A stretch of DNA of 34,897 nt. Source: Methanoregulaceae archaeon. GTDB taxonomy: Archaea; Halobacteriota; Methanomicrobia; Methanomicrobiales; Methanospirillaceae. Both the position numbers and the translations under genes were made by a program. The stretch is from positions 1-34,897 of the forward strand of contig JAHDSI010000062.1 in NCBI GenBank assembly GCA_018432765.1, read 5' to 3'. This document shows, one piece after another, positions 6,672 through 11,038 of this stretch (the stretch's first letter is position 1; the number at the start of each line of letters is the position of its first letter). The notes beneath the pieces are model-generated. The model did no database searches. It worked only from the letters and a program-made list of their open reading frames with translations, and was not told where the DNA came from.

Positions 6672-6807
6672 ATGGTGCACCGGTTCCCGGGGGCGACCTA
6701 TGCCTGTTAACTTCCAAAAGACGTATCAAGGTGGCATCATGAAGGAAGAACAGGATCGCGTTTGACGGGATGTTTCTCGGTACACCCCCTGAAAAATTTT
6801 CATTTTT
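6672..6807 (+). ncRNA. Candidate short transcript or small-protein unit
   Basis: A unit of about 135 bases bounded by the promoter at 6641-6651 and by the T-rich run TTTTCATTTTT near 6797-6807. It contains a leaderless-position ATG at 6672 (12 codons), an ATG at 6700 (21 residues beginning MPVNFQKTYQ) and an ATG at 6739 with a GGTGG sequence just before it (8 residues). It may be a small RNA, a tiny protein gene or the remnant of a lost gene. Its 3' end would touch the 3' end of the convergent adenine deaminase transcript. Confidence 0.25.
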
Positions 6808-8509
6808 ATGCCTTTTCTATTCCGCGTTTTTCTGCCAGGTCAGGTATGAACAGTGGCACGTCAGTGAAGGAGCCGACGTCAAAGAGCCCCCGATCGGTTA
6901 TCCGCAGGTGCGGGATAACCGTGAGTGCAAGAAAAGAGAGGTACATGAAGGGCTCCGGAATAGATCCCCATTTTCGTGCACAGGTGTTTAATGCGGAGAT
7001 CTTCTCACATACCGCTTCGTATGGAAGGTCCGACATGAGTCCTGCACATGCAAGGGGGAGCAATACCATCTCATCGCCATGCACGGCGACCATTCCGCCC
7101 TCATTCTGTATGATCGCATCGACCGCTCTTTTAATATCCAGGTCATCCACACCGACGGCGACGATATTGTGCGAATCATGTGACACGCTGCTGGCGATTG
7201 CGCCCTTCCGAAGGCCGAAACCATGGACGAGCCCGTTTCCGGATGATCCGTCTCTGTAACGACTGCATACGACCGCTTTTATGATATCCCTGCCAGGATC
7301 GGGTATATCCCTGGCGTCGATCTCGAAGTCCAGGCTCTCTGTCAGTATCTGGTTGGGAACGATTCCGATGACCCGGGCCGTGCCGGAACCGCTGATATCG
7401 AGTGCATCCGGGGGCAGGCGGGTGCATTTCATCGTGTGACGGATACCTGTTGCGGATCGCGGTTTCGGGCCCTGTGCGATTTTTCCGTTCTTAAACACCT
7501 TCTCTACCTCGAACCGGACTCCCGTCTTCAGTACGCAGAAATCGGCACGTCTCCCTGGAACAAGGGCCCCCCTGTCATTGAGGAGGAACCTCTCGCACGG
7601 AGAGAGTGTCGCCATCCTGATTGCCAGTTCGGGTTCAAGCCCGAATTCGACAGATTTCCTGATGCAGTCATCAATGTGGCCGTCATGTACCAGCATGTCG
7701 ACGTGCCTGTCATCGGTTGCAAAGGAGAACCGTGAACAGGTGCAGGGCGTGACAATCCGTATGATTTCAGACAGGTTCTTCTCCGTGGATCCTTCCCGTG
7801 CAAAGATATACATCCCAAGATCGAGTTTCTCGGCAGCTTCGTCTGCCGATACACATTCATGGTCGCTCTGTATCCCTGCTGCAACGTATGCATTCAGGTC
7901 CTTTCCGGATAGCAGCGGTGCATGGCCGTCTATGATGGGAGTGAGCGAGAGTTTCTCCCAGACAGACGGATCGAGGTTCAACACTCCGGGGACATTCATC
8001 ACCTCTGCGAGGCCAAGTATTCCGTCCTTTCCGATGAACAAAGAAAGGTCGCTGGCGGTAAGCTCTGCACCGCCCCTGTCAAGCGGTGTAGCCGGTACAC
8101 ACGAAGGGAGCATGAAGAATATATCGATTGGCAGGCCCTCTCTTTCAGCAAGCATAAAGGAGATTCCGTCCACACCGCACACGTTGGCGATCTCGTGGGG
8201 ATCGGCTACCACGGTGGTGGTCCCATGGGCCGAGACGAGTCGTGCATACTCTGACGGGACAAGGAGCGAGGATTCTATATGGACATGTGCATCGATCAGG
8301 CCGGGAACGACCCTCCTGCCCCTGAGATCGACTGACTCGTGGGCCCTGTAATCCCCTGTTCCGACTACGAAGCCTGATTTGACCGCAAAGCTCGAGATTG
8401 ACCATTCACAGGTGAACGGGTTGAAGATCTCGGCATTCTCGTACACCACATCAGAAGGAATCTCACCCCTTGATGCCTTTACCTGTGTATATATCGTGTT
8501 ATTTTTCAT
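6806..8509 (-). CDS. ade: Adenine deaminase
   Basis: A protein of 567 residues, the usual length for the amidohydrolase-superfamily adenine deaminase that converts adenine to hypoxanthine and ammonia in purine salvage. The metal-binding motif is intact: GLIDAHVHIESSL with His75 and His77. Further family segments are HGTTTVVADPHEIANV and, toward the middle, IQSDHECVSADEA and FSFATDDRHVDML with the catalytic His/Asp residues. The start ATG 8509 follows AGGTG at a spacing of about 7. A 7-bp hairpin lies in its leader (8546-8571). It is monocistronic. Confidence 0.95.
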   Translation of the reverse strand: MKNNTIYTQVKASRGEIPSDVVYENAEIFNPFTCEWSISSFAVKSGFVVGTGDYRAHESVDLRGRRVVPGLIDAHVHIESSLLVPSEYARLVSAHGTTTVVADPHEIANVCGVDGISFMLAEREGLPIDIFFMLPSCVPATPLDRGGAELTASDLSLFIGKDGILGLAEVMNVPGVLNLDPSVWEKLSLTPIIDGHAPLLSGKDLNAYVAAGIQSDHECVSADEAAEKLDLGMYIFAREGSTEKNLSEIIRIVTPCTCSRFSFATDDRHVDMLVHDGHIDDCIRKSVEFGLEPELAIRMATLSPCERFLLNDRGALVPGRRADFCVLKTGVRFEVEKVFKNGKIAQGPKPRSATGIRHTMKCTRLPPDALDISGSGTARVIGIVPNQILTESLDFEIDARDIPDPGRDIIKAVVCSRYRDGSSGNGLVHGFGLRKGAIASSVSHDSHNIVAVGVDDLDIKRAVDAIIQNEGGMVAVHGDEMVLLPLACAGLMSDLPYEAVCEKISALNTCARKWGSIPEPFMYLSFLALTVIPHLRITDRGLFDVGSFTDVPLFIPDLAEKRGIEKA

Positions 8510-9241: not shown

Positions 9242-9721
9242 ATGGATGAGATATTTGCAGTCGGGCTTATTTTTGCAGGAATTCTCTCTGTTATGGTAAG
9301 CCTGGCCCTGGTGAAGATGGGAAAAGTGATCGATGCATTCTCCATCGGGGATGAACCGGAGAGGGACCGGAGTATGTGGAGTCCTCTTGAATTTACCAGG
9401 ATCATCGTGGCTCTCTTCTGGATCTTCTTCCTTCTGGCGGCATACATGATCTCGCTTGGTACACGGGTCATGCTTGTCGTAGGGATAGCCACAATAGCAG
9501 GGCTTGTCCTGTTTCTCGGGACTGCACTGGTCTTCTCGGTCGCAACCTTCAACCTCATGCGAAGCCGGGCGAAGGGTGACGGCGGCAAGTCCACGCTTCT
9601 CTCCTCGATGACGAAGCCAACAATCAACCCTGTGGCATTCATCCCTGATATGGGCAGAAAGTCGTATACTGGTGCCCGTCACACCAAAAATGCTGCTTCA
9701 GAAAGCGACAGCAAAAATTAG
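9242..9721 (+). CDS. Orphan membrane protein with three predicted helices
   Basis: A protein of 159 residues, not recognised. There are three hydrophobic helices: about 5-26 (FAVGLIFAGILSVMVSLALV), 52-72 and 77-105. A charged loop (SIGDEPERDR) follows the first helix, and a polar tail of about 50 residues follows the third. No catalytic motif is visible. It ends in TAG. It is divergent from the ribbon-helix-helix regulator, which may control it. It could be a stress or transport accessory protein, but the sequence does not say which. Confidence 0.65.
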   Translation: MDEIFAVGLIFAGILSVMVSLALVKMGKVIDAFSIGDEPERDRSMWSPLEFTRIIVALFWIFFLLAAYMISLGTRVMLVVGIATIAGLVLFLGTALVFSVATFNLMRSRAKGDGGKSTLLSSMTKPTINPVAFIPDMGRKSYTGARHTKNAASESDSKN

Positions 9722-9733
9722 CGAATAATCTGC

Positions 9734-9803
9734 GTGCCGGGAAGAGGGGAGAACTGACCTGCGCCACATACAGAAAGCCAATAATATGCGTGCTTTCCGG
9801 CAC
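9734..9803. terminator. Inverted and direct repeats between convergent genes
   Basis: GTGCCGGGAAG (9734-9744) can pair with CTTTCCGGCAC (9793-9803) with one G-U, leaving a loop of about 48 bases. The same interval has the near-identical direct repeats AATAATCTGCGTGC (9724-9737) and AATAATATGCGTGC (9780-9793). It lies in the 102-base gap where the membrane-protein gene and the atp-pgk operon converge, so a shared terminator is possible. Confidence 0.3.
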
Positions 9804-9823
9804 CAATCCCGGCACATAATTTT

Positions 9824-11038
9824 TCAACAGAATAACTCTTTTGAACGTTCCAGTGCATCGACAGCAGGGAGTTTCTTTCCGGTGAGAAACTCGATGCAGG
9901 CGCCACCACCCGTTGAGATGTGGGTGAAGTTCTTTTCAAGACCGATCTTTTCTGCAACGGCCGCGGTATGACCGCCGCCTATGACGGAGAACTCCACCGC
10001 GGATGCGGCCCGCAGGAGCTCGTAGGTTCCCGTCGCAAAGTCCTTCTCCTCGAAGAGCCCTGCGGGACCATTAAATACAACCGTTCCGGCATTCTTGATC
10101 TCGTTTGAGAATGATATGATCGAATCCATGCCGAGGTCGAGCACCGGGCAATCACCCGGGATCGCGTCAACCGCGTATTCCGCACGTTTCCCGCCCTCCT
10201 TGACCGCAACCCATTCAGGGACCATGATCTTTTCCGGATACGTGGCAAGAAGTGTTCGTGCATGCTCGATCTCGCCATCGTAGCCGAGCTGGGCGAGGAG
10301 TTGCGAAGAGGGTCTCCCGATGTCGCGTTCCATCGCCATCAAAAAGACGTTTGCCACAACCCCGGTGACGAGCACCCGGTCTGCGATCTTTTGGGAGAGC
10401 ATGTGCTATGCGACGTCCATCGAATCATCCACCTTGGTCCCCCCGAGCACCATGAAAACAGGCCCGGGTGCATCATCAAAGACCCTCGATAGCGTGGTCA
10501 CCTCCTTCTCCATGAGCAGTCCTGCAACCGATCGCATGGCGAGCGGAAGCCCGACCATCGTCGGCTGGGAGCGGTGGGCGGTTCCGAAGGCATCATTGAC
10601 AAAGAGGTCGCCCATCTGTGCAAGCTTCCTGACAAGGTGTGTCTTTACCGCATCTTCGGGCTTTAACTTCAGGTTCTCCTCGGCAGAAAAGCGGACGTTC
10701 TCAAGCATGAGAACATCACCGATACGCATAGCCCTGATTGCATCCCGGGCGCAATGGCCGAAGATATCGTCGACGTACGTGACCGGCCTCTGGATGAGCT
10801 GTGCCAGTTTCTCCGCATGTGCCTCTAGCGTCGTAAAATCTTTCTTACCCGGCCTGCTCTGGTGGGTGACGACGACCACCCGGCTCTTTTCGAGTGCCAG
10901 GATGGTCGGGATATGCTCCCTGAACCGTTTGTCGTCAAGAATAAGGTTTGTGGCCGGATCGATCGGGGAATTGAGATCCAGACGGAGGAGTACTGTCTTT
11001 CCCGCCGACTGAATCTGGTCCAACGTACCGATCGGCAT
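9824..11038 (-). pseudogene. pgk: Phosphoglycerate kinase interrupted by an in-frame TAG (codon 211 of 404)
   Basis: Joined, the frame encodes a normal-length archaeal phosphoglycerate kinase that interconverts 3-phosphoglycerate and 1,3-bisphosphoglycerate with ATP, needed for gluconeogenesis. The N-terminal half has LLRLDLNSPID, the substrate-binding segment THQSRPGKKD and LLMEKEV; the start is ATG 11038 after AAAGGT. The C-terminal domain has GGTKVDD, VTGVVANVF, VFNGPAGLFE and IGGGHTAA. TAG at 10408-10406 interrupts the helix just after GGTKVDDSMDVA, with no frameshift; the next codons are CAC ATG. Aligned with other kinases (VIENLL against VA*HML), the residue would be Glu, so GAG to TAG is one change. 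No other lesion is visible. Sequence error, fresh mutation, readthrough or a two-chain enzyme are all possible. The gene follows atpD by 13 bases. Confidence 0.85.

Follow-up and report, generated by a model that had tools for sequence, protein, structure and literature searches.

An in-frame TAG in an archaeal phosphoglycerate kinase gene is most simply explained as one wrong base of a draft genome

Results

The phosphoglycerate kinase gene and its interruption

The window, a stretch of 34,897 nucleotides, encodes on its minus strand (9824..11038) a phosphoglycerate kinase (PGK) gene, pgk, of 404 codons followed by TGA, with one interruption: an in-frame TAG at 10406..10408 (minus strand) that occupies codon 211 of 404 and whose first base is base 631 of the gene. 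The minus-strand codons around the site read GTC GCA TAG CAC ATG CTC, with the TAG at 10408-10406 and the ATG at 10402-10400, and the frame is open from 11038 to 10409 and again from 10405 to 9827, where the TGA follows. When read through, the product comprises 404 residues and in a profile search matches PF00162, the Pfam PGK family, over positions 1-379 with 380 bits and one internal TAG; the match is thus full length, with both the N- and the C-terminal domain, although the frame is not uninterrupted. The part upstream of the TAG (10409..11038, minus strand) encodes the N-terminal domain and the first strand of the C-terminal domain, including the GGTKV motif, and matches PF00162 positions 1-199 with 217.9 bits. 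From the ancestral Met at codon 213 onwards, the gene (9827..10402, minus strand) encodes the remaining nucleotide-binding domain and matches positions 205-379 with 148.5 bits. The codons, the open frames and both partial matches agree with an earlier note on this DNA, which described a frame intact on both sides of the amber codon with CAC ATG next; its placing of the break past GGTKV, within the C-terminal domain, also holds.

Comparison with relatives

The window belongs to a metagenome-assembled genome, G000 (1.86 Mb in 236 contigs, 86.1% complete), which is a fragmented draft bin, and was compared with two relatives of the same genus, G001 and G002; in public genomes the corresponding loci carry the labels Methanolinea sp. 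UBA477 and Methanolinea sp. SDB. Both congeners keep the neighbourhood of pgk, with ~93.5% identity to the window over the shared stretch. Alignment with pgk of close relatives, a check that the earlier note had proposed, revealed that codon 211 is GAG, one base from TAG, in G001 and G002 alike. The pgk genes of the window and G002 are 96% identical, and within bases 422-680 (259 bases) the G/T at base 631 is the sole difference between them. A pgk was found in 60 of 61 genomes, comprising G000 and 60 relatives from its family and order (59 of the 60 relatives), and among the ~60 family and order genomes searched an internal stop in PGK occurs only in the copy in the window. These data show a one-base change that, among the assemblies compared, is confined to this one, in surroundings that are the same as those of the closest relative.

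The CAC ATG that follows the site is common to G002. As the ATG is shared with a 96%-identical gene it predates the TAG, and the alignment identifies it as an ancestral Met codon, not a new start; the closeness of the two codons is a coincidence. The ATG two codons on from the amber codon, named in the heading of the earlier note, is present as described.

Two further differences from the congeners were seen in the window. The gap at 9722-9823, which separates pgk from the gene at 9242-9721, differs in length among the three congeneric genomes, and in the window it contains stretches of 22-32 bases absent from both relatives. In addition, at 6806-6845 (minus strand) an adenine deaminase-like gene lacks one base near 6843 that is present in both congeners; this shifts the frame at the extreme end, such that the protein is about ten residues longer (DLAEKRGIEKA), while those of the relatives end in DVPLFIP.

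In an alignment with the solved enzyme 2cun, residue 211 falls on Glu209, just past the GGxKVxDS motif. Across 115 related loci, among which some genomes appear twice and a better scoring second type of PGK is represented, residue 211 is Glu (44 loci), Arg (27), Gly (12), Ala (10) or Asp (8), with Lys, Ser, Gln, Leu, Cys and His also represented; a TAG occurs at the site in none of the 115. The expectation that the residue should be Glu thus holds within the genus, where both congeners carry GAG, but not across the Methanomicrobiales, where Glu (44/115) alternates with other residues such as Arg (27/115). This variation indicates that substitution at position 211 is tolerated and that a readthrough product would probably work. 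The second PGK type has a much higher score (~450-500 versus ~390 bits) and is carried by some ten of the 60 relatives (L002-L011); it is perhaps a bacterial-type copy, and the genus of the window yielded none.

Selection, decay and second copies

Codon changes on the G000 lineage, polarised by G001 and G002, comprise 14 synonymous and 3 nonsynonymous changes downstream of the TAG, and 2 synonymous and 4 nonsynonymous changes upstream. The downstream pattern points to ordinary purifying selection on the part after the TAG in this lineage, indicating that pgk either still functions or ceased to do so only very recently. Comparison with G001 and G002 disclosed no further stop or frameshift in the gene, and an old pseudogene was rejected on this lack of additional damage together with the 14:3 ratio.

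A profile search of the assembled part of the 86%-complete genome returned no second pgk, and the 31 bases preceding the site were present in G000 as a single copy, that of the window itself. The intact second pgk that the earlier note would have taken as the mark of a plain pseudogene was therefore not found in the 86% of the genome available. Archaeal GAPDH, which catalyses the adjoining pathway step, is present and intact in G000. No match to archaeal FBPase (PF01950) was obtained in G000, a result that says little as the search covered that FBPase type alone. Methanogens use PGK in the gluconeogenic route that supplies triose and pentose phosphates, and Methanococcus maripaludis displays no sugar uptake (PMC4902934); on these grounds a dead PGK would be costly.

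Reading of TAG in the genome

Among 110 conserved G000 genes with an identified stop, 69 end in TGA, 27 in TAA and 14 in TAG, consistent with the earlier view that amber is a normal stop here, and aRF1 is present and intact. Genome-wide reassignment of TAG was rejected because it terminates 14 conserved genes and because no further real gene in the sample contained an internal TAG. The best PylS score in the 86%-complete G000 was 22.9 bits against a cut-off of 178, and such sub-threshold cross-matches were discarded as far under the cut-off; PylD gave no match in G000. None of 40 relatives exceeded either cut-off, while one named control genome passed in each search.

No CUA anticodon was found among the 27 typed of the 28 tRNA genes detected, a set that is incomplete. 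The 28th gene (L152:1501-1611), which was not reported by ARAGORN, contains an insertion after an anticodon that reads CAT by eye, and is probably an elongator tRNA-Met with an intron. No hairpin was found near the TAG, and local RNA folding was no better than that of shuffled sequences (z -0.8 and +1.6).

Error load of the assembly

Internal stops were screened in ~285 kb of G000 (~250 kb of contigs plus the window) against proteins called from 800 kb of the near-complete relative G022. The screen yielded 113 aligned genes (~113 kb), some of which are shadow frames, and pgk was the sole real gene with an internal stop. Most other apparent internal stops were rejected as lying in wrong-strand shadow frames, such as L176:2255-3852, which is antisense to frames resembling ribosomal proteins and NusG; others were upstream of the likely real start (an RNA polymerase subunit in L177, and cases in L165 and L174), and the remainder were natural gene ends. 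Lineage-specific substitutions displayed no excess of G-to-T changes (12 of 208). The sampled G000 sequence thus exhibits neither mass recoding nor mass error.

Discussion

The simplest account of the TAG is one wrong base in a draft metagenome bin, and the next is a true recent nonsense mutation; both options had been named in the earlier note, which chose neither, and both fit everything seen here. We favour the former: the TAG is likely to be an isolated GAG-to-TAG consensus error, arising in sequencing or assembly, or a base contributed by a minor strain. In this scheme a wrong consensus base replaced GAG with TAG in the metagenome-assembled sequence, and in the cells the product of pgk would most likely be a functional PGK of full length whose residue 211 is Glu or some other tolerated one. 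This is consistent with the GAG of both congeners, the stop-free PGK of the other genomes searched, purifying selection after the TAG, the finding of no other pgk in the genome, an intact GAPDH and the cost of a dead PGK, as well as with the source of the sequence, a fragmented draft bin of 236 contigs that is 86.1% complete. Against an error, no sign of an unusual error rate was seen in the assembly, with this lone internal stop in a real gene over ~113 kb, and G-to-T changes are not in excess (12/208). The preference for an error over a true allele is a judgement that derives from the need for the enzyme and the draft state of the bin.

A very recent nonsense mutation that is truly present in this strain is possible, if clearly less probable; PGK would then be absent, or produced in small amounts through background misreading of the TAG. 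Such an allele is a single step from GAG, the sampled genome has few errors elsewhere, and the position is one at which relatives carry E, R, G, A, D, K, S, Q, L, C or H. However, a hydrogenotrophic methanogen is expected to need PGK, no second pgk was found, selection downstream of the TAG looks normal, and no other conserved gene in the sample is decayed.

Programmed or suppressor-driven readthrough, in which an ordinary amino acid at the TAG would complete a full-length PGK, is improbable. The conserved downstream frame and the tolerance of position 211 would suit it, and the missing part of the tRNA set could hold a suppressor tRNA. Conversely, the single base that differs in 259 nt from the GAG-containing relative indicates that no new local recoding signal has evolved, folding at the site does not surpass that of shuffles (z -0.8, +1.6), none of the 28 tRNA genes found has a CUA anticodon, TAG terminates 14 of 110 conserved genes and aRF1 is intact; the readthrough entertained in the earlier note is therefore unsupported. 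The more specific proposition that a hydrogenotrophic methanogen lacking pyrrolysine makes its essential gluconeogenic PGK only through readthrough of a real TAG, at a permissive position, appears very improbable.

Termination at the TAG with reinitiation at the ATG 3 nt downstream, generating two chains that associate, is more doubtful still. The in-frame ATG lies immediately after the TAG, but this Met codon is ancestral, neither a normally spaced GGAG-like motif nor a clear ribosome-binding site was seen close upstream of it, and the split would fall inside the nucleotide-binding domain, parting GGTKV from the rest and leaving the second chain without the motif. These data oppose the two-chain option of the earlier note. 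Pyrrolysine insertion, for which an in-frame amber codon in a methanogen is the attraction, is extremely unlikely, as PylS above the cut-off and PylD were not found in G000 or 40 relatives, one named control genome passed each cut-off, and TAG is an ordinary stop here. Recoding, pyrrolysine and a functional split gene are thus unsupported.

If the base is an error, the consequence is an annotation note and nothing more. If the TAG is real, the only known pgk of an autotrophic methanogen contains a stop codon, and the organism would require a suppressor, readthrough at a useful level or a second enzyme, none of which was seen in this analysis.

The gene in the window is an ordinary archaeal-type phosphoglycerate kinase: it matches the family (PF00162; nearest solved chain by sequence, 2cun_A) over its full length on both sides of the TAG and shares its gene neighbourhood with both congeneric genomes, differing in the one in-frame TAG at the residue aligned with Glu209 of 2cun. 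PMC8037382 names selenocysteine, pyrrolysine and a -1 frameshifted α-L-fucosidase as the sole unequivocal cases of recoding in Archaea. The pgk of the window resembles these genes in being archaeal and having its reading frame interrupted, but differs in that no pyrrolysine machinery, conservation of the interruption in relatives or local signal was found, and it adds no case to firmly shown archaeal recoding. With point nonsense mutations and wrong consensus bases in draft metagenome-assembled genomes, by contrast, it shares every feature seen, namely a change of one base, in one genome, with the relatives intact.
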